From Nodosilinea sp. P-1105 (lineage in GTDB: Bacteria; Cyanobacteriota; Cyanobacteriia; Phormidesmidales; Phormidesmidaceae), in NCBI RefSeq assembly GCF_012911975.1, contig NZ_SMDQ01000048.1:1-43901 (forward strand): a stretch of 43,901 bases of DNA. The letters are read 5' to 3'. Numbering within the stretch: the stretch's first letter is position 1; every line of letters begins with the position of its first letter. A model generated the notes under the pieces. It had not been told where the DNA came from, did no database searches, and saw nothing but the letters and a program-made list of their open reading frames with translations. This document shows positions 32,529 to 42,687 of this stretch, one piece after another. Position numbers and translations under genes: made by a program.

Positions 32529-33806
32529 ATGACCTTATCCCTACAGGAGCTGATCACCGCTGTACAGGAAACCCCCTGGACGACTGAACCGGGGCGGCGC
32601 TACCTGGAAGAGTTGATTGGCCGCATCTTGAGAACCCCCTGTTTCTATCGCTCAGCCAGATCGCCCACGGCGGTGGTGATGGAGATTAACCAGCAACTGC
32701 GATCGCAGCTTTACCAGGACCTGGCCACCGCTATCCAGCACTACCCCAGGCGGCTCTCCCCCCGGGAGTGGGTTGAGGCCAAACGCCGTCAGATCTATCG
32801 AGCCGTACTGGATGACCACTGCCTCAACCGGCTGGCCTGGCAGGCCCAGGACTTTTTCCCCGAAAGCCCCCAGCGGCGACAGGCCCTAAACGAGCTGATT
32901 GAGGCCATCCAGCGCTCGGAAAAGCTGGCCCGAAATCGTCACCACTCCCCCACCTACGACGAAGCTGTGAGCCTTACCCTCAGCCATGTCTACGAAAAAA
33001 TTGACCAATACGACCGGCAGCGCAGCAACCTCATGGGCTGGGTCAACTACTGGCTGGGCATTCACCTGCGCCAGGCGGAAAAAGACCAGCTTGACCCCCT
33101 GAAGAGCAATTTCATGGCGCGACGGTTGCGGTGCAAAGCCTGGTTAACCCGCCTCGTCAAAAAAATCCGCCAGGAAGATCTAGACCGTTGGCTGTTCTTG
33201 GTTGGCCTGCGCTGGGATCCTGCCTCGCCTATTTTTGCCACAGGCCTGTTGGTGCTGGTGGGGTGTCTGTGGCTGGCCCGCCTGCGGATTGTGAACCCAC
33301 CCCAGGCGAATGCCCTGCTGTTTATTCTGGCGGATAGCCTCCTGGGCATCCAGATCTTTATGGATTCCCTGGAGGACAAAGAGATTGCGGTGCCCACTAC
33401 CCCTAAGGCCCTTAGCGATGGCGATCGCGTGTGGCTATACCTGATGAAGGATCCCCGTAACCGCTGCCAGGAGCACATCCGAGGCAGGCCCGATGTCACC
33501 TTTCAGATAATTGCCCTGGCTTACATGGATGGCGTCCCCTGGAACACCTTCTCCCAGCAGGTTGACGTCCCCGTCCCTACCCTCAGCAGCTTCTACCAAC
33601 GCCAACTGGAAAAACTAAGCCCCCTAATTCAGCAGGATTTAGAGGAATTAGATGATGAAGACCTGGGCGATTTAGACGATTTAAACGATCCCAATGACCC
33701 AGATGACTTAGACAACCCAGGCGATTTAGAAGATCCAAACAATCCAGACAACCCAAACAATTTAGAAGATCCAGACGATTGCCCAGATACCCGTTCTCCA
33801 CCTTAA
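32529..33806 (+). CDS. Sigma-70-like protein with hydrophobic insert and acidic tail
   Basis: The 425-residue protein resembles the cyanobacterial sigma-70-like family found beside CHAT/DUF1822 genes. Residues about 138-185 match a region-2-like helix pair (YDEAVSLTLSHVYEKIDQYD...WVNYWLGIHL), and residues about 322-366 match a region-4-like helix-turn-helix (FQIIALAYMDGVPWNTFSQ...VPVPTLSSFYQRQLEKLSP). Between them, residues 235-256 and 260-281 are strongly hydrophobic. Residues 368-425 are a low-complexity Asp/Asn/Pro/Leu repeat (LDDLNDPNDPDDLDNPGD). It may direct RNA polymerase or act as a regulatory DNA-binding protein; true sigma activity is unproven. It is the first large gene of the CHAT module. 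Confidence 0.7.
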   Translation: MTLSLQELITAVQETPWTTEPGRRYLEELIGRILRTPCFYRSARSPTAVVMEINQQLRSQLYQDLATAIQHYPRRLSPREWVEAKRRQIYRAVLDDHCLNRLAWQAQDFFPESPQRRQALNELIEAIQRSEKLARNRHHSPTYDEAVSLTLSHVYEKIDQYDRQRSNLMGWVNYWLGIHLRQAEKDQLDPLKSNFMARRLRCKAWLTRLVKKIRQEDLDRWLFLVGLRWDPASPIFATGLLVLVGCLWLARLRIVNPPQANALLFILADSLLGIQIFMDSLEDKEIAVPTTPKALSDGDRVWLYLMKDPRNRCQEHIRGRPDVTFQIIALAYMDGVPWNTFSQQVDVPVPTLSSFYQRQLEKLSPLIQQDLEELDDEDLGDLDDLNDPNDPDDLDNPGDLEDPNNPDNPNNLEDPDDCPDTRSPP

Positions 33807-33810
33807 GCCT

Positions 33811-33954
33811 TCGTAGGGTGGGCACTGCCCACCACTCAATAAACCTGTCCCACAGTCCTCGTAGGGTGGGCACCGCCCACCACTCAATAAACTTGTCCCA
33901 CAGCCCTCGTAGGGTGGACACCGCCCACCACTCAATAACCTTGTCCCCCAGTCA
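33811..33954. repeat. 48-bp tandem repeat with GGTGGGC palindrome, three copies
   Basis: Three 48-base units start at 33811, 33859 and 33907 (TCGTAGGGTGGGCACTGCCC then ACCACTCAATAAACCTGTCC). Each contains a GGTGGGC-act-GCCCACC stem, and the third has substitutions. They fill the whole spacer between the sigma-like and DUF1822 genes. Confidence 0.9.
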
Positions 33955-34011
33955 CCTTAAATGCCCCAGACAACCCAAACGATTAATTGCACCAGACTGG
34001 CCAAAACCGCC

Positions 34012-34956
34012 ATGATTATTGATATCCCCTTCCCCAAACCTTGTCTGAGCCCTACCATGATCCGCCTGACCACCACCGCCCATCAGTGGGCTGCTCAGTT
34101 TTGTAACCAACAGCGCCAGCCCCTGAAGGCTGAGCAGGTGTATCGCAATACCCTGGCTGTGTGGGCCGTCCACGAACTGCTTCGGGTCGAGGGCATCGAC
34201 AGCGACCTGGAGGCCAGCCATAGCTGGAATCTGATCTTTCAAACCTGTAGCGACGCAGCCGACCTGGTGCTGCCCAGCCAAGGTCGGCTGGAATGTCGCC
34301 CCGTGGACCCAGACGCCGCTGTGATGGCCGTCCCCCCCGAAACCTGGGAAGATCGCCTGGGCTATGTGGCCGTGCAATTGGACGACGCCCTGGAAACGGC
34401 GATGGTGTTGGGGGTAGTGGAATCGGTGCAGCAGGAAACCGTGGCCCTGGCGGACCTGCAAGACTTTGCCCCCTGGCTAGAGCGCTTGCGCCCCCAGAAA
34501 ACATCCCCCCCAGTTCCTGCCCTCACCCGCCTGCAAGACTGGCTGCAGGGCCAGCTCGACCAGGGCTGGCAAACCCTGGACAGCCTATTGCAGCCGCCCA
34601 CCCTGGCCCTGAACCCCCGCAGTGACCTGACCACCCGCGATCGCCCCCTGATCCGCCGAGCCAAACCCCTGGCCCTACCCTCCCTGGGGGAGGCGCAGAT
34701 TGTCCTGGCGGTGGCCGTGCTACCCCAAGCCGCCCCCTGGCCGATCGCCGTCAGCCTGGGCCCCCTACCCCCAGTCCAGTATCTGCCCCCAGACCTGACC
34801 CTGTCGGTGCTGGACCCAGACGGCGTAGCGGTGATGCAGGCCCAGTCCCGGGCCACAGAGCAGCTAACCCTGGAGTTTACCGGCGAGCCCGGCGATCGCT
34901 TCAGCGTCCAAATCACCCTGGGGGCCACCACCCTCACCGAAGCCTTTGAGATTTAA
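34012..34956 (+). CDS. DUF1822 family protein
   Basis: The protein (314 residues from this start) has the DUF1822 signature: TAHQWAAQFCNQQRQPLKAEQVYRNTLAVWAVHELL, followed by CRPVDPDAAVMAVPPETWEDRLGYVAVQLDD, and a C-terminal beta-rich domain (VLAVAVLPQAAPWPIAVSLGP...LTLEFTGEPGDRFSVQITLG). The family is restricted mostly to cyanobacteria and is of unknown function. It has no signal peptide, so it is probably cytoplasmic. The start is uncertain: ATGs at 33961, 34012 and 34057 are in frame and none has a good ribosome-binding site. The gene sits between sigma-like and CHAT-CHASE2 genes, which suggests a linked signalling role (inference). Confidence 0.85.
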   Translation: MIIDIPFPKPCLSPTMIRLTTTAHQWAAQFCNQQRQPLKAEQVYRNTLAVWAVHELLRVEGIDSDLEASHSWNLIFQTCSDAADLVLPSQGRLECRPVDPDAAVMAVPPETWEDRLGYVAVQLDDALETAMVLGVVESVQQETVALADLQDFAPWLERLRPQKTSPPVPALTRLQDWLQGQLDQGWQTLDSLLQPPTLALNPRSDLTTRDRPLIRRAKPLALPSLGEAQIVLAVAVLPQAAPWPIAVSLGPLPPVQYLPPDLTLSVLDPDGVAVMQAQSRATEQLTLEFTGEPGDRFSVQITLGATTLTEAFEI

Positions 34957-35301: not shown

Positions 35302-35371
35302 CTGGTTCTGGTGGGCAGTGCCCACCCTACTTCTGCCTTCTGGTTCTGGTGGGCAGTGCCCACCCTACTTC
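35302..35371. repeat. Two inverted-orientation copies of the GGTGGGC palindrome unit
   Basis: CTGGTTCTGGTGGGCAGTGC followed by CCACCCTACTTC occurs at 35302-35333 and 35340-35371 (period 38). The core is the same palindrome as in the 48- and 85-bp units, read in the opposite direction. It lies directly upstream of the CHAT-CHASE2 start codon. Confidence 0.88.
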
Positions 35372-35403
35372 ATCCTTCTGCCTTTTGCCTTCATCCTTTT
35401 ACC

Positions 35404-37743
35404 ATGTCTCTCAAACGTGTTGTCCTCACCCTCAACGGCGATCTCACCCAGGGCTTTCAGGTGCGCCTAACCCTGGGCAGCCTGACGATCGCCCCCTCTA
35501 CCCCCGCCACCTACACCCCCCTGGTGGAAACCACCGGCCAGTTGCCCCCAGCCCCGGCCCTGGGGCAGGCCCTCCAGGACTGGCAACAGGTCTACCACCA
35601 ACTGCTGCTGCCCACCCGGGCCCTGCGGCCCCAGCGGATTCGCCACGATGGTTCCCTGGATTTGAGGACCGACTGTCGGCGGTTGGGGGATAGGGTGATT
35701 GCGCAGTTTCAGCGGTGGTTGCAGACGGAACCCTTTCAGCCGATTAACCTGCGCCTGCGGGAAGAACTGCATCGGGATGAGCCGATTCAACTGCTGATTC
35801 GCAGCTCCAATCCTGACCTGGCCCATCTGCCCTGGCATCGCTGGGACTTTGTGGAGCGCTATGGCCAGGTGGAGGTGGCCTTTAGCCCCCCCGATGCCGA
35901 CCGGTTGGCGGCCCCCACCCCTGACCCCACCGCTGGTAAGGTGCGGATTCTGGCGATTTTGGGCCACAGTGCCGAGATTGATGTCAGCCGCGATCGCGCC
36001 CTGCTGCAAGCCCTACCCGATGCCGATGTCACCTTTTTGGTGGAGCCCGACCGGGGGCAGCTCACCGATCAGCTGTGGGAGCAACCCTGGGACATTTTGT
36101 TTTTTGCCGGTCACAGCACCACCGATGCCCAGGCCGGGCGGCTGTACATCAACGCCACCGACACCCTGACCATCGACGAGCTGCGCTACGGTCTGCAGCG
36201 GGCGATTGCCCAGGGGCTGCAGTTAGCCATTTTTAACTCCTGCGATGGCCTGGGGTTGGCCCAGGCCCTAGGGGATTTACACCTACCCCAGATGATTGTG
36301 ATGCGGGAGCCGGTGCCCGATGCGGTGGCCCAGCAGTTTTTGCTGTACTTTTTGCAGGCCTTTGCCGCCAACATCCCCTTTTACCAGGCGGTGCGCCAGG
36401 CCCGGGAGCGGCTGCAAGGTTCAGAGCAGGCGTTTCCCTGTGCCAGTTGGCTGCCGATGGTGTACCAGCAATCTACTGCTCTGCCCCCCAGTTGGGCCGA
36501 TTTAGCCCAGCGCGATCGCCCTACCCCCCATCGCCCTAATCCCCTGTTGGCGCTGGTGGGGGGTGGTCTGGTAGCGGCCCTGGTGGTGGCGGCCCGCCTG
36601 GCGGGGCTGTTGCAGGGGGCGGAACTGGCGGCCTATGACCAGCTAATGCGCCTGAAGCCGGACCAGGGCCTGGATGATCGGCTGTTGATGGTAGAAGTGA
36701 CTGCCGAGGATGTGGCGAACCAAGATCCGGACGAACGGGGCGAGGCGTCCCTGTCCAATGCAGCCCTAGAACAGGTCCTGGACAAGCTCTTAGAGCATCA
36801 GCCCCGAGCCGTTGTCCTCGATATTTACCGGGAAGCCAGGGTGGGTGAAGGCCATGAAAATTTGGTCGATCTGCTACAACGACAGCAGGTGGTGTTCCCC
36901 TGTAGTCAACCCCTGGAAGAAGGTTTTGGGGTGCGTCCGCCCCCGGAACTTCAGCCCGATCAATACAGAATCCGCCTGGGGTTTACTAATTTTCCGGCGG
37001 ATGATGACGATGTTGTTCGCCGCCAGTCCCTCTATCAAGTGCCGGCAACCACATCGAACTGTCCAGCCGAATACTCACTGGCTCTGCAGGGTGTCCGCCA
37101 CTATCTCCATGGCGAAGGCATTGGGCTGGAGTGGACAGATGAGTCGATTTCCGCCATTCAATTTCAAGAGACTGTCTTTCCTCGCCTCCACCCCCACTTC
37201 GGAGGCTATCAGGGGGTAGAAGATACTGGGGAGCAAATTATGCTGAACTACCGCTCCTCGGCCCAGGGGGTGGCCCCAAGGGTTTCCCTCGGTGAGGTTC
37301 TGACCGATGAGGTGGACCCCAGCTGGATTGAAGGCCGCCTGGTGCTGATCGGCACCGTAGATCCCAGCTTTAAGGATGATCACCTTACGGCGGGGCACGG
37401 CAAAATGCGCGGTCTTCATATCCATGCCCATGCAGCCAGCCATTTGTTAAGCGCAGTATTGGACGGACAGCCCTTAATTTGGACCTGGTCAAACCCGGCT
37501 GAAATGGCCTGGATTGTCGCCTGGGGGGTGACGGGGGGAGGCATTGCCTGGGGCGTTCAGTCATTGAAGAAACGTAGCCTGGCGATCGCGACCGGGATCG
37601 TGCTGCTCTATGGTGGCAGCTACGGACTGTTTTTGTTGGGGGGCTGGGTTCCCTTAGTGCCAGCGGTGCTGGCCTTGACAGGCGGTGTGGTGGGAGGGGC
37701 AATGATGCCATCCCTGCTGAGCCGTACCCAGACGAACGATTAG
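35404..37743 (+). CDS. CHAT-CHASE2 membrane protein
   Basis: The 779-residue protein has an N-terminal region and CHAT (caspase-like) domain (about 1-355) with an intact dyad H237 (FFAGHS) and C280 (IFNSCDG). A transmembrane helix (about 380-400) is followed by a CHASE2-type sensor domain (about 400-690; YDQLMRLKP...LLMVEVTAEDV...VVLDIYRE). Two or three C-terminal hydrophobic helices end the protein (MAWIVAWGVTGGGIAW, AIATGIVLLYGGSYGLFLLG, PLVPAVLALTGGVVGG). By topology the CHAT domain should be cytoplasmic and CHASE2 extracytoplasmic. The frame is open to 35311 but that part is repeat-encoded; the ATG at 35404 begins MSLKRVVLTLNG. It probably converts an envelope signal into a CHAT activity (inference). 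Confidence 0.9.
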   Translation: MSLKRVVLTLNGDLTQGFQVRLTLGSLTIAPSTPATYTPLVETTGQLPPAPALGQALQDWQQVYHQLLLPTRALRPQRIRHDGSLDLRTDCRRLGDRVIAQFQRWLQTEPFQPINLRLREELHRDEPIQLLIRSSNPDLAHLPWHRWDFVERYGQVEVAFSPPDADRLAAPTPDPTAGKVRILAILGHSAEIDVSRDRALLQALPDADVTFLVEPDRGQLTDQLWEQPWDILFFAGHSTTDAQAGRLYINATDTLTIDELRYGLQRAIAQGLQLAIFNSCDGLGLAQALGDLHLPQMIVMREPVPDAVAQQFLLYFLQAFAANIPFYQAVRQARERLQGSEQAFPCASWLPMVYQQSTALPPSWADLAQRDRPTPHRPNPLLALVGGGLVAALVVAARLAGLLQGAELAAYDQLMRLKPDQGLDDRLLMVEVTAEDVANQDPDERGEASLSNAALEQVLDKLLEHQPRAVVLDIYREARVGEGHENLVDLLQRQQVVFPCSQPLEEGFGVRPPPELQPDQYRIRLGFTNFPADDDDVVRRQSLYQVPATTSNCPAEYSLALQGVRHYLHGEGIGLEWTDESISAIQFQETVFPRLHPHFGGYQGVEDTGEQIMLNYRSSAQGVAPRVSLGEVLTDEVDPSWIEGRLVLIGTVDPSFKDDHLTAGHGKMRGLHIHAHAASHLLSAVLDGQPLIWTWSNPAEMAWIVAWGVTGGGIAWGVQSLKKRSLAIATGIVLLYGGSYGLFLLGGWVPLVPAVLALTGGVVGGAMMPSLLSRTQTND

Positions 37744-37773
37744 ACCAATTTGATTACGCGAGGATTATTCGCC

Positions 37774-38571
37774 ATGAAATTTCGTTACCAACCTTCGGTT
37801 TTGGGCTTAGCCATGGGCCTGGGTTTGCTGACCAGCCTGGGACTACAGCCGGTCCAGGGAACTGAAGCCCCTGGAGCCCAGGTGAAGGCAGAAACGCCCA
37901 TTCAAGATCCTGACCCACCGGCTAGCGCCAACCGGGGTGCCCCGACCCGCCAGGTGGATGCAGGCACTCGCCGGTCTTGCGGTACCTTTGACCCCACCGA
38001 AACTGGCTTCTTAACTGCTCTGATTCCGGGGGATGGCCCAGCCCTGACCCTGGCCTCCCACCCCACGTTTTGGGCCTATGTCCCCTTTGATGCCGACGAT
38101 GTGGATGCCATGGAACTCTCGGTGCGCCCGGTGAATGAGGCTGACATTGCCACCGTCGATATCCCGGTGCCCGAGGCCTTGCCGGGGGTGGTGTCGTTGC
38201 CGATGCCCGAAACTGGGGCCGCCCTGGAGCCAGATGTGACCTACCAATGGGTGCTGCGAGTCTACTGCCGCAACGCCCCCCAGCCCATTCCTGACTTTCA
38301 TGTCATAGGGGCCGTCCACCGGGTAGAAGCCAACACCGCCCTACAACAGACCCTGGCCCAGGCCGACTCGACGGCAGAGAGGGTGGCGGTCTACCAGCAG
38401 GGTGGCCTGTGGTATGAGGCGCTAACGACGCTGGGCCAGCAATACAAAATGGAGCCGGATAATTCCGCGATCGCAACTCAATGGGCCACATTTTTGGAAA
38501 ATCTGGAGATCGACTGGCAAACCTTTAACATCGAATTCGACCTCACCACCCAACCCATCGTGATGGAATAA
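37774..38571 (+). CDS. DUF928 family exported protein
   Basis: The 265-residue protein begins with a signal peptide (MKFRYQPSVLGLAMGLGLLTSLGLQPVQG) and contains the DUF928 core: RRSCGTF, PTFWAYVPFDADDVDAMELSV, ALEPDVTYQWVLRVYCRN and VIGAVHRVEA. A C-terminal helical part (YQQGGLWYEALTTLGQQYKMEPDN) follows. Two cysteines (RSCG, YCRN) may form a disulfide. The family is cyanobacterial and uncharacterised, and typically neighbours CHASE2/CHAT and TPR genes. AGGA lies 9 bases before the ATG; a TTG at 37750 is a less likely start. It follows the CHAT-CHASE2 stop by 30 bases. Confidence 0.88.
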   Translation: MKFRYQPSVLGLAMGLGLLTSLGLQPVQGTEAPGAQVKAETPIQDPDPPASANRGAPTRQVDAGTRRSCGTFDPTETGFLTALIPGDGPALTLASHPTFWAYVPFDADDVDAMELSVRPVNEADIATVDIPVPEALPGVVSLPMPETGAALEPDVTYQWVLRVYCRNAPQPIPDFHVIGAVHRVEANTALQQTLAQADSTAERVAVYQQGGLWYEALTTLGQQYKMEPDNSAIATQWATFLENLEIDWQTFNIEFDLTTQPIVME

Positions 38572-38928: not shown

Positions 38929-41900
38929 ATGAAGAACCCCCTCACAACCTCCCCAGCGATCTGTCTAGCCGCCTGCCTGGTGGGGGCCAGCCCGGCATTG
39001 GCCACTGCCCCTGACCCCGAACCCATTAACCTGGCCCAAATTAATCAAGATTCAACCTATCTCTCAGTCGCCGACTCTTTCTACCACCAAACCGCCGATC
39101 TCTATGAAGCAGGAGACTACGAACAGGCCCTGCGCCTATCCCAACGCGCCCTCGCTATTCGAGCTGCCCGTTTAGCCCCCGACCACCCGGCCATGGTCAG
39201 CAGCCAGAAACAGCTCGCAGCCCTTTACCAAGCCACTGGCCAAGCTGAAGAGGCGGCCCGTTTGGAGGAACAACTGGCAGCGGTGCCACCCCAACCAGAC
39301 AACGGTGGTGATGCTGCTGTGGATCGTTCCAGTGAGGACAATGCACCAGAATCATCCCCACAGCTAGCCGAGGCGGAGGATTTACTTCAGCAGGCCATAG
39401 AGCTCTATGAAGCCGGCCAATACGCCGAAGCTATCCCCTTGGCTGAGCAAGTCCTCGCTATTGTTGAAGCGCAATTAGGCTCTAACCACCCTGATACTGC
39501 TGGCAGTTTATCCTGGCTAGCGGCCCTTCATCATGCAATAGGCCGATATGTCGAGGCAGAGCCTCTGCATGAGCAAGCCCTGGCAATTCTTGAAACCCAG
39601 CTAGGTCCAGACCATCCCCGTTTGGCTACCAAGCTGAATAACCTGGCGGAGCTGTATCGGGCGATGGGCCGTTATAGGGAGGCGGAACCTCTCCATAAGC
39701 GGGCCCTGGCGATTCATGAAGCGCAGTTAGGTCCCGACCATCCGAGTGTAGCCACCAGCCTGAATAACCTGGCGGTTTTGTATCGAGCAATGGGTCGTTA
39801 TAGGGAGGCAGAAACCCTATTTGAGCGGGCCCTGGCGATTCATGAAGCGCAGTTAGGCCCCGACCATCCAAGTGTGGCTGCCAGCCTGAATAACCTGGCA
39901 TTGCTGTATTGGACTATGGGTCGTTATGGCGAGGCGGAACCGCTATATGAGCGGGCCCTAGCGATTGTTGAAGCACAGTTAGGCCCCGACCATCCCGCTG
40001 TAGCTACCAGCCTGAACAACCTGGCGTTGCTGTATAAGGATATGGGTCGTTATGGGGAGGCAGAACCGCTATATGAGCGGGCCCTAGCGATTCGAGAGGA
40101 ACAGTTAGGCCCCGATCATTCCGATGTGGCTCAAAGCCTGAATAACCTGGCAATGCTGTATCAGGAAATGAGCCGTTATGGCGAGGCGGAACCGCTATAT
40201 GAGCGGGCCCTAGCGATTGTTGAAGCACAGTTAGGCCCCTACCATCCCCATGTGGCCACCAGCCTGAATAACCTGGCGTGGCTGCATCAGGCTAGGGGGC
40301 ATTATGGGGAGGCAGAACCGCTATATGAGCGGGCCCTAGCGATTGTTGAAACACAGTTAGGCCCCGATCATTCCGATGTGGCCACCAGCTTGAATGGTCT
40401 GGCGGAGATGTATCAGGATATGGGCCGTTATGACGAGGCAGAACCGCTGTTTGAGCGGGCCCTAGCGATTGCTGAAGCGCAGTTAGGCCCCTACCATCCG
40501 AGTGTGGCTGGCAGCCTGCATAACCTGGCAGGGTTGTATCGAGCGATGGGCCGTTATAGGGAGGCAGAAACCCTGTTTGAGCGGGCCCTAGCGATTCGTG
40601 AAGCACAATTAGGACTCGACCATCCAAGGGTGGCCACCAGCCTGAATAACCTGGCGTTGCTGTATCTGGATATGGGTCGTTATAGTGAGGCAGAAACCCT
40701 ATTTGAGCGGGCCCTGAAGATTCGTGAGCAGCAGTTAGGACCCGACCATCCAAGTGTGGCCACCAGCCTGAACAATCTGGCGTTGCTGTATCTGGATATG
40801 GGCCGTTATGGCGAGGCAGAAACCTTTGTTGAGCGGGCCCTGAAGATTCGTGAGCAGCAGTTAGACCAGGATCATCCTAATGTCGCTGACAGTCTGTATC
40901 TCCTGGCGGCGCTGTATCAGACGATGGGCCGTTATAGTGAGGCGGAATCCCTATTTAGCCGAGCGGTTGATATCGAGGAAGCCAACTTAGCCCGCCTGCT
41001 GGCCATTGGCTCTGAACCCCAGAAACAGTCCTACATGGCCACTTTGACTGGCACAACCTACGCCATACACACCCTCGCCCTACAACTCGACAGCCCCCAA
41101 GCCCCCCACCTGGGCCTGACCACCCTACTACGTCGCAAGGGCCGCATCCTGGATACAGTGACCGATTCCCTGCGAATTGTGCGCCAGGAATTGGCCGATG
41201 ACCCCGAGGCCCAGGCTCAACTGGATGAGCTGATCGCAGTGCGCAGCCAACTGGCCACCCTGGTCACCCATGGGCAGGGGGAGCTGGAGCCCGAACAATA
41301 CCGCCAACGCTACGATCACCTCGTCCAGCAAGAGCAGGATCTAGAAAGTCGCCTCAATCGCCTCAGTTCAGCCTTTCAGGCGGTGAATGAACCTGTCACC
41401 ATCGCCGCTGTGCAGGCCCAGATCCCCGACGATGCCGCCCTAGTGGAATTCGTCCGGTACCGCTCCTATGACTTTGAAGCTGAGTTCATAGATCGCTGGG
41501 GAGACGATCGCTATGCCGCCTACATCCTCAAATCCACAGGCGAACCCCAGGTAGTTTATCTGGGCCCTGCCGAGGCAATCGTTTCCCTGGTGAGGGACTT
41601 CCGGTGGGCGCTCCAAGACTCTTCCCGGGAAGCCACAAAAACGGTCCATCCCAGTGGTCGTGCCCTCTATGCCCAAATCCTCCAGCCCCTGTCTGATTCC
41701 CTCAGCGAGGTCGATCACCTACTGCTCTCCCCCGATGGAGCCCTCAACCTGATTCCCTTTGAAGCCCTGGTCACCGACCAGGATCGCTACCTGATCGAAG
41801 ACTACCGCCTGTCTTACCTCACCTCGGGCCGTGACCTGGTGCGCCTCGGCGCCCTGCCCAATAGCCAGAACCCGTCGCTAATTGTGGCCAACCCCGACTA

Positions 41901-42687
41901 CAACCAAGCCGACACCCCAATCGCCGCTACCCCCGCCACCACCCGAGGTCAACAAAACCGCCGCTCTGCTGACCTGGCTACCCTATCGTTTGGGGCGCTG
42001 CCCGGCACCAAGACGGAGGTGAACGAACTGAAAGCCCTCTTCCAGCAAACGGCGTTGCCCCTTGATGTGCTCACGGGCCGCCAAGCCACCGAAACCCAGG
42101 TGAAGCAGGCCCAGGCCCCCAGCATTCTGCACATTGCCACCCACGGCTTCTTTCTGCCCGACCAGGAAGTAGAACTTACCCCAGCACCAGGATTTGGCCG
42201 CCTGGGGGATACCCCACCACCGGTACTCAACATCGAAAACCCGTTGATCCGCTCGGGGCTGGCCCTGGCGGCGGCAAATCCTCCCCGCCCTGCCCTGGAC
42301 GCCAACGAAGACGATGGCCTGTTAACTGCCCTGGAACTGGCGGGCATGGACCTCTACGGCACTCAACTGGTGGTGCTCTCGGCCTGTGAGACTGGGGTGG
42401 GCGACAACAGCAGCGGCGAAGGGATCTACGGCCTGCGGCGGGCCCTGGTGATGGCCGGGGTGCAAAGCCAGGTGGTTAGCCTCTGGCATGTGGCCGATGA
42501 CAGCACCGCCACCCTGATGAGTGACTACTACCAGCGGCTGCTGGACAGTGAAAATCCCGCAGGTCGCCATGAGGCGTTACGGGACGCGCAATTGGCCATG
42601 CTCCACGGCGATGACACGACCCGCCGTCATCCCTACCACTGGGCAGCGTTCATCGCCTCTGGAGACTGGCGTCCCCTGGAGTTTTAG
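38929..42687 (+). CDS. Exported TPR-CHAT protein (candidate caspase-like protease)
   Basis: The 1252-residue protein has a signal peptide (MKNPLTTSPAICLAACLVG...ALA, about 1-26) and degenerate TPRs to residue 179. Twelve tandem 42-residue TPRs of the kinesin-light-chain type (180-683; consensus EAQLGPDHPSVATSLNNLAL then LYRAMGRYGEAEPLYERALA) follow, then a helical linker with a coiled-coil (about 700-830). The C-terminal CHAT domain (about 900-1252) keeps both catalytic residues, H1072 (LHIATHGF) and C1153 (VLSACETG). TPR-CHAT proteins in other bacteria are proteases controlled by their TPR part. Export would place this one in the periplasm. It is the last gene of the module. Confidence 0.93.
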   Translation: MKNPLTTSPAICLAACLVGASPALATAPDPEPINLAQINQDSTYLSVADSFYHQTADLYEAGDYEQALRLSQRALAIRAARLAPDHPAMVSSQKQLAALYQATGQAEEAARLEEQLAAVPPQPDNGGDAAVDRSSEDNAPESSPQLAEAEDLLQQAIELYEAGQYAEAIPLAEQVLAIVEAQLGSNHPDTAGSLSWLAALHHAIGRYVEAEPLHEQALAILETQLGPDHPRLATKLNNLAELYRAMGRYREAEPLHKRALAIHEAQLGPDHPSVATSLNNLAVLYRAMGRYREAETLFERALAIHEAQLGPDHPSVAASLNNLALLYWTMGRYGEAEPLYERALAIVEAQLGPDHPAVATSLNNLALLYKDMGRYGEAEPLYERALAIREEQLGPDHSDVAQSLNNLAMLYQEMSRYGEAEPLYERALAIVEAQLGPYHPHVATSLNNLAWLHQARGHYGEAEPLYERALAIVETQLGPDHSDVATSLNGLAEMYQDMGRYDEAEPLFERALAIAEAQLGPYHPSVAGSLHNLAGLYRAMGRYREAETLFERALAIREAQLGLDHPRVATSLNNLALLYLDMGRYSEAETLFERALKIREQQLGPDHPSVATSLNNLALLYLDMGRYGEAETFVERALKIREQQLDQDHPNVADSLYLLAALYQTMGRYSEAESLFSRAVDIEEANLARLLAIGSEPQKQSYMATLTGTTYAIHTLALQLDSPQAPHLGLTTLLRRKGRILDTVTDSLRIVRQELADDPEAQAQLDELIAVRSQLATLVTHGQGELEPEQYRQRYDHLVQQEQDLESRLNRLSSAFQAVNEPVTIAAVQAQIPDDAALVEFVRYRSYDFEAEFIDRWGDDRYAAYILKSTGEPQVVYLGPAEAIVSLVRDFRWALQDSSREATKTVHPSGRALYAQILQPLSDSLSEVDHLLLSPDGALNLIPFEALVTDQDRYLIEDYRLSYLTSGRDLVRLGALPNSQNPSLIVANPDYNQADTPIAATPATTRGQQNRRSADLATLSFGALPGTKTEVNELKALFQQTALPLDVLTGRQATETQVKQAQAPSILHIATHGFFLPDQEVELTPAPGFGRLGDTPPPVLNIENPLIRSGLALAAANPPRPALDANEDDGLLTALELAGMDLYGTQLVVLSACETGVGDNSSGEGIYGLRRALVMAGVQSQVVSLWHVADDSTATLMSDYYQRLLDSENPAGRHEALRDAQLAMLHGDDTTRRHPYHWAAFIASGDWRPLEF
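39466..40977 (+). repeat. Twelve 126-bp tandem coding repeats (TPR array)
   Basis: The TPR-CHAT gene contains twelve consecutive in-frame 126-base units. Adjacent units share long identical stretches such as GAGCGGGCCCTAGCGATTGT and ACAGTTAGGCCCCGA, implying recent duplication or gene conversion. Because the array is so regular, antisense open frames appear across it; these are not genes. Confidence 0.92.

Follow-up and report, generated by a model that had tools for sequence, protein, structure and literature searches.

A stretch of cyanobacterial DNA from Nodosilinea sp. P-1105, 43,901 nucleotides long and analysed as a whole (hereafter the window), raises the question of whether a sigma factor can be held at the membrane by an element placed between its own two domains. 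The open reading frame at 32529-33806 (+) encodes a sigma-like protein of 425 aa, and the original prediction had noticed two long hydrophobic stretches between its region-2 and region-4 parts, read them as a possible membrane tether from which the factor would be released by cleavage, in keeping with CHAT proteins encoded nearby, and knew of no description of such a feature in the family. A soluble core burying these stretches, or charged residues at the same positions in homologues, was to count against it. By computation, the domain order of the protein is a helical N-terminal extension, a sigma2-like domain, an insert of ~110 residues, a sigma4-like domain and an acidic tail, laid out as follows (insertion scores here and below are on a membrane-insertion free-energy scale with provisional parameters):

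32529..32801, + strand, N-terminal helical extension, residues 1-91 (pLDDT block means 78-97 in helices)
32802..33083, + strand, probable sigma2-like domain, residues 92-185 (superposition on SigC region 2; Pfam Sigma70_r2 in the family)
33084..33416, + strand, insert with four predicted helices, residues 186-296 (no counterpart in insert-free relatives)
33096..33209, + strand, first part of the insert, residues 190-227 (model helices 190-212 and 215-227)
33231..33293, + strand, conserved transmembrane-type helix, residues 235-255 (insertion score -2.27; model helix 234-255)
33312..33371, + strand, second hydrophobic stretch, residues 262-281 (insertion score +1.81; 17-residue mean 2.08)
33417..33650, + strand, probable sigma4-like domain with HTH, residues 297-374 (Pfam Sigma70_r4_2 in the family; NCBIfam; pLDDT)
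33651..33803, + strand, acidic Asp/Asn/Pro-rich tail, residues 375-425 (lacking in 10 insert-bearing relatives)

The N-terminal extension (residues 1-91) is common to insert-free relatives of ~300 aa. Short tandem units of 9 and 54 bp (at 33634-33780) code for the acidic tail (residues ~372-425), and in the gap that separates the sigma-like gene from the following DUF1822 gene, at 33811-33953, a 48-bp unit occurs three times (92% match).

The window protein itself gave no Pfam match at E<=1, and against NCBIfam eight weak matches to sigma-factor models were obtained (E 0.018-0.17), seven inside residues 306-370 and one at 145-173. In its family, represented by the 51 members of alignment A4 (chosen from the loci at hand), Pfam Sigma70_r4_2 was matched at E<=0.1 in 24 members (best 2.3e-6) and Sigma70_r2 in 12 (best 8.5e-6). 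When the A4 profile was compared with solved structures, chains of the ECF factors SigE and SigK ranked first, at an E of ~0.25 that is not significant alone. In the AlphaFold model of residues 1-375 (mean pLDDT 84.3, pTM 0.59; block means >90 from residue 301 on, in the sigma4-like domain), residues 92-185 superpose on region 2 of M. tuberculosis SigC (2o7g; rmsd 2.4, 85/88 residues) with a Z of 7.4, a modest value, as a Z below ~13 may reflect an arrangement common in helical models; all 50 superposition matches listed are titled sigma factors or RNA polymerase complexes with sigma. Foldseek returned no PDB match to the model at E<=0.001 among 86 at E<=10, the first 15 being RNA polymerase or sigma entries (E 0.3-1.1) and 14-3-3 proteins and others coming thereafter. 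Taken together, the NCBIfam matches, the Pfam matches of the family, the A4 profile and the model superposition make it likely, not certain, that residues ~92-185 are sigma2 and residues ~297-374 sigma4.

By model and family matches, the protein has the sigma2 plus sigma4 composition of ECF factors (group IV of the sigma70 family). A sigma2-sigma4 linker of <50 residues is given as a further ECF hallmark in the available part of PMC8103513; here ~110 residues lie between the two domains, and we therefore term the protein ECF-like. No anti-sigma family was found by Pfam among the six window neighbours scanned.

Both hydrophobic stretches proved real, with Kyte-Doolittle 19-residue maxima of 1.99 (residues 232-250) and 1.77 (260-278) and a sigma-like domain on either side. 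On the insertion scale with its provisional parameters, negative scores for the first stretch come from 10/11 insert-bearing members (-2.27 in the window, -0.17 to -3.02 in nine others), the exception being genome G030 at +1.83; the second stretch of the window scores +1.81. As a yardstick, each of two ABC-2 transporter proteins encoded in the window has its seven best segments between -1.61 and +1.98, and the best segment of the DUF1822 protein reaches +2.55. A negative score is found in just one of 113 homologues of 195-333 aa, counted as insert-free by length, and there it belongs to an N-terminal stretch that may precede the true start; this contrast speaks for membrane attachment of the insert. 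The same holds for the way in which the first helix keeps its hydrophobicity in 10/11 members (19-residue mean 1.98-2.74; 1.36 in G030) at an identity to the window of 8-32% in nine relatives, a range that leaves out genome G475. When the inserts were shuffled, scores as low as observed arose in 6/300 cases for the window, whose value thus goes beyond chance, in 0-26/300 across ten members and in 113/300 for G030.

The second stretch behaves differently, with a 17-residue mean of 2.08 in the window versus 0.37-0.96 in the ten relatives, where sequences such as LLFEIAQQSLP and LLYEVAQELVDLPP form a more polar, amphipathic helix. Because strong hydrophobicity of the second stretch is confined to the window, one membrane-type helix is conserved, not two. 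The original prediction is thus partly supported: one hydrophobic helix is conserved (10/11), a pair of membrane helices as a family trait is not, and half of what was to count against it in homologues applies, the second stretch being amphipathic in all ten relatives. Lysine and arginine are more numerous in the 20 residues before the first helix than after it in 10/11 members (equal in G557). An excess of K+R on the N-terminal side is seen in many membrane helices whose N-terminal side is cytoplasmic; the resemblance points to a cytoplasmic sigma2 side and is a further point in favour of attachment. Elsewhere in the insert, R201, K203 and L206 (first part) and L264 and A268 (second-stretch helix) are invariant across the 6 rows of alignment A2.

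In the AlphaFold models the insert is of low confidence, with block means of 43-72 within residues 191-290 of the window protein, where neighbouring helices 234-255 and 257-282 are drawn, and of ~40-78 in the relative from G030, where it is not compact; the underlying alignments contained only two insert-bearing sequences, and neither model proves or excludes membrane insertion. The soluble core that was to bury the hydrophobic segments did not appear in them.

How widespread is the insert? Relatives of the sigma-like protein occur in 22/57 genomes at E<=0.001, 15/63 at E<=1e-8 and 44/388 at E<=1e-9. A search of genome contigs with the single window protein found none, and a search with an alignment gave 227 relatives, 80 of which were retained. 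Most of the relatives collected are ~200-330 aa long and without the insert, which is missing from all 13 insert-free relatives of alignment A1. An uninterrupted match across the insert was found in five genomes besides the window (G030, G155, G254, G195 and G386), and a profile of the insert (A3) matched in 3/36, 6/217 and 6/388 genomes, sets that overlap and contain the profile's own members. The total comes to 11 different genomes including the window, from three cyanobacterial families. Every insert-profile match in the three sets sits in a sigma-like gene (in the 217- and 388-genome sets, part of the first-look candidates were scored); the insert as a domain of other proteins was rejected on this ground. 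We also rejected a frameshift artefact, as the insert can be aligned over its whole length in 11 genomes and is under purifying selection in four close pairs (dN/dS 0.12-0.31); the latter is another argument for attachment. Over sigma4, dN/dS is 0.07-0.31 in three pairs (77 codons), and identity to the window is 37-42% in nine relatives. Frames are full-length in 10/11 members; the insert-bearing gene of G475 (L164 1779-2684) stops early at 302 aa, before sigma4, be it a pseudogene or an assembly fault.

On a tree of 60 rows, built with the insert columns removed, the 11 insert-bearers fall in an N-extended clade (97/98 support), beside insert-free N-extended forms. The insert label changes twice on the best tree and once in 10% of bootstrap trees, so that a single origin may still apply. 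The window and G030 sit on long branches whose grouping is weakly supported (89/22), which makes their placement unsure. Searches with the window protein at E<=1e-8 came back empty in all 25 same-genus genomes (G001-G025); the gene was therefore gained in the window genome or lost elsewhere, assuming that the contig belongs to this genome. Among viral contigs, 32 pattern matches included no relative; plasmids gave one match (24.5% identity, E 6e-8) without an annotated feature beneath, a phage library one match (E 0.21), and a defence library no match at E<=0.1.

The sigma-like gene is followed in the window by four genes, among which Pfam confirmed the CHAT neighbours of the original prediction:

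33961..34956, + strand, DUF1822 protein (PF08852, E 2.6e-52)
35311..37743, + strand, CHAT + CHASE2 protein with hydrophobic helices (PF12770, PF05226; helices scoring -1.88 and -0.29)
37750..38571, + strand, DUF928 protein (PF06051, E 9.5e-42)
38929..42687, + strand, TPR-CHAT protein (PF12770, E 9.6e-87; TPR families)

CHAT proteins we take to belong to the caspase superfamily, and His268 and Cys311 (window numbering) are conserved in 15/15 aligned CHAT partners. The CHAT-CHASE2 protein may start at the Met codon of residue 32 (~35404), and it is from residue ~35 onward that it aligns with relatives. In two genomes its counterpart is split into two reading frames (G254, L161 2896-5280; G030, L169 10563-12853). 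The DUF928 and TPR-CHAT proteins have N-terminal hydrophobic stretches (insertion scores +0.77 and +0.98) that look like signal peptides, and the TPR-CHAT protein may therefore act outside the cytoplasm.

DUF1822 adjoins the insert-bearing sigma-like gene in 11/11 loci, and a CHAT-module relative is nearby in nine of them, either directly after DUF1822 (window, G155, G254, G195 and G030) or 2.0-3.2 kb upstream of the sigma-like gene (G386, G418, G557 and G562), with intervening genes in all three upstream-type loci for which genes are listed. CHAT was not seen in ~8.9 kb upstream in G475 or on the 3.6-kb contig of G563. DUF1822 and CHAT are also present in 6/6 loci fetched for insert-free relatives (L170-L175), and the insert is therefore dispensable for the system. 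Elsewhere in the window genome lies another DUF1822/CHAT-CHASE2/DUF928 locus (L176 5727-11233, G000:C181), headed by a different sigma70-like protein of 405 aa (Sigma70_r4, E 1.3e-6) with ~160 residues between regions 2 and 4; homology of the insert to this sigma2-sigma4 region was rejected (profile comparison probability 5.8% and 1.2%).

This type of locus is known. According to the available part of a 2021 eLife paper (PMC8195603), EACC2-caspase genes vary in their C-terminal domain, of which CHASE2 is one example, and most of one set are accompanied by an ECF sigma factor and DUF1822; autopeptidase activation is proposed, with the ECF factor as a possible last step. The window has the same partners (a CHAT protein with CHASE2, an adjoining DUF1822 gene and the sigma-like gene), whereas an insert or membrane helix in the ECF factor is not mentioned in that part of the paper. 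Single polypeptides that combine a sigma factor with membrane helices are known as well: the accessible text of PMC8999054 describes IutY, ECF48/52/53 and ECF36 as membrane-fused ECF factors with helices in C- or N-terminal extensions. The window protein differs from these in that its helix lies between sigma2 and sigma4 instead of at an end, and no anti-sigma domain, such as would be fused in that class, was among the Pfam matches of the protein or of five insert-bearing relatives scanned. Regulation involves the sigma2-sigma4 linker in ECF238/CorE and ECF41 too, by way of a short motif in the linker and of domains at the C-terminus; the same portion of PMC8999054 mentions no membrane helix for them. 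In SigO-RsoA of Bacillus subtilis, sigma2 and sigma4 work as separate chains; these are two proteins, and neither an insert nor a membrane helix is mentioned for them in the available part of PMC8103513. No sigma factor with a membrane helix in this internal position, between sigma2 and sigma4, was found in the accessible portions of the literature on membrane-bound and ECF sigma factors and on DUF1822/EACC2 loci, in agreement with the original prediction; judged by these sources, it is the position of the helix inside the sigma2-sigma4 junction that differs.

Membrane tethering of the sigma-like protein is plausible, and we tentatively favour, as a possible account short of an established one, an ECF-like sigma70-family factor of an EACC2-caspase (CHAT)/DUF1822 locus that is attached to the membrane via its insert and held off until triggered. 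In the extra helical module directly after sigma2, helix 235-255 would be the anchor in the cytoplasmic membrane; behind it would come an amphipathic return helix, which in the window genome would also have turned hydrophobic. As both sigma domains must be cytoplasmic to work, the helix would most likely go in and turn back, in the manner of a hairpin or re-entrant element, rather than cross the membrane alone. The attached factor, beside a CHASE2-anchored CHAT sensor, would be in its off state through being unable to wrap RNA polymerase. Wrapping requires that the sigma2-sigma4 linker be threaded through the enzyme: ECF holoenzymes have it running through the active site and the RNA exit channel (PMC8103513, available part), and a membrane-held element at its sigma2 end should block this threading. 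Once the sensor is triggered, the partners (CHAT protease, DUF1822) would free or reshape the factor, and target genes would be directed. Domain order, conserved hydrophobic helix and locus are computed results, whereas membrane location, topology, off state and trigger are what we infer here; the helix could form a hairpin with the return helix, lie in the membrane surface or stay outside the membrane altogether. Against this account, no hairpin is apparent in the sequence and the K+R bias fits a lone crossing, one conserved helix by itself would leave sigma2 and sigma4 on different sides of the membrane, G030 has lost the strong helix (+1.83; 113/300 shuffles as low) and keeps the locus, and insert-free relatives have the DUF1822 and CHAT neighbours too. 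On the other side stand the sigma-like halves, the presence of the insert in 11 genomes of three families and the observations on helix, selection and charge given above, together with the DUF1822/CHAT loci and their His/Cys pair.

Somewhat less probable, and still a serious contender, is a soluble protein whose hydrophobic helix never enters the membrane and is either buried or used for docking, be it to DUF1822, to the N-terminal extension or to a further copy of the protein. The weak hydrophobicity of the G030 helix would suit it, as would the invariant L264 and A268, which a docking surface might show, and the constant neighbour DUF1822 (11/11), termed a TPR protein in the accessible part of PMC8195603. 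Against it are the insertion scores, which fall within the range of the window transporter segments, the lack of confident insert packing by AlphaFold, from alignments with two insert-bearing sequences, and runs of the FIFIFF type (G386). Such runs are uncommon in soluble proteins.

We consider it unlikely that two membrane helices make a hairpin tether from which CHAT proteolysis releases an active sigma factor. The hydrophobicity of both window stretches, modelled as neighbouring helices, and the conserved His/Cys pair of the CHAT partners agree with this; the second stretch, however, is amphipathic in 10/10 relatives, and proteolysis inside the insert would leave sigma2 and sigma4 on different fragments, which makes proteolytic release less likely. 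No support emerged for the release by cleavage of the original prediction, and a cut within the tether would separate the two domains. There is a slim chance that this separation is the point, with an integral-membrane sigma factor carrying its element at the sigma2-sigma4 junction, its halves kept apart at the membrane, and CHAT cutting the insert to give an active split sigma factor, comparable to the two proteins of SigO-RsoA.

Very improbable is a decaying or non-functional sigma-like protein with a freely drifting insert, as might be suspected from the patchy presence of the gene (0/25 same-genus genomes at E<=1e-8) and the early stop in G475, but at odds with the purifying dN/dS of insert and sigma4 and with the full-length frames in 10/11. 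Least credible of all is a lone crossing that leaves sigma2 inside the cytoplasmic membrane and sigma4 beyond it, so that the protein would not function as a sigma factor in that state, since the single conserved helix and its K+R bias (10/11) would allow it but sigma4 is conserved (37-42% identity; dN/dS 0.07-0.31) and its HTH would find no DNA outside.

In membrane-held sigma factors, as covered in the available part of the review PMC8999054, the membrane part is found at an end of the protein, or a separate anti-sigma factor does the holding. If the preferred reading of a membrane-attached ECF-like factor is true, a helix within the sigma2-sigma4 junction would keep a sigma factor inactive by another route, and it would tie cyanobacterial EACC2/DUF1822 loci, with their caspase-like genes, to a testable transcription switch.
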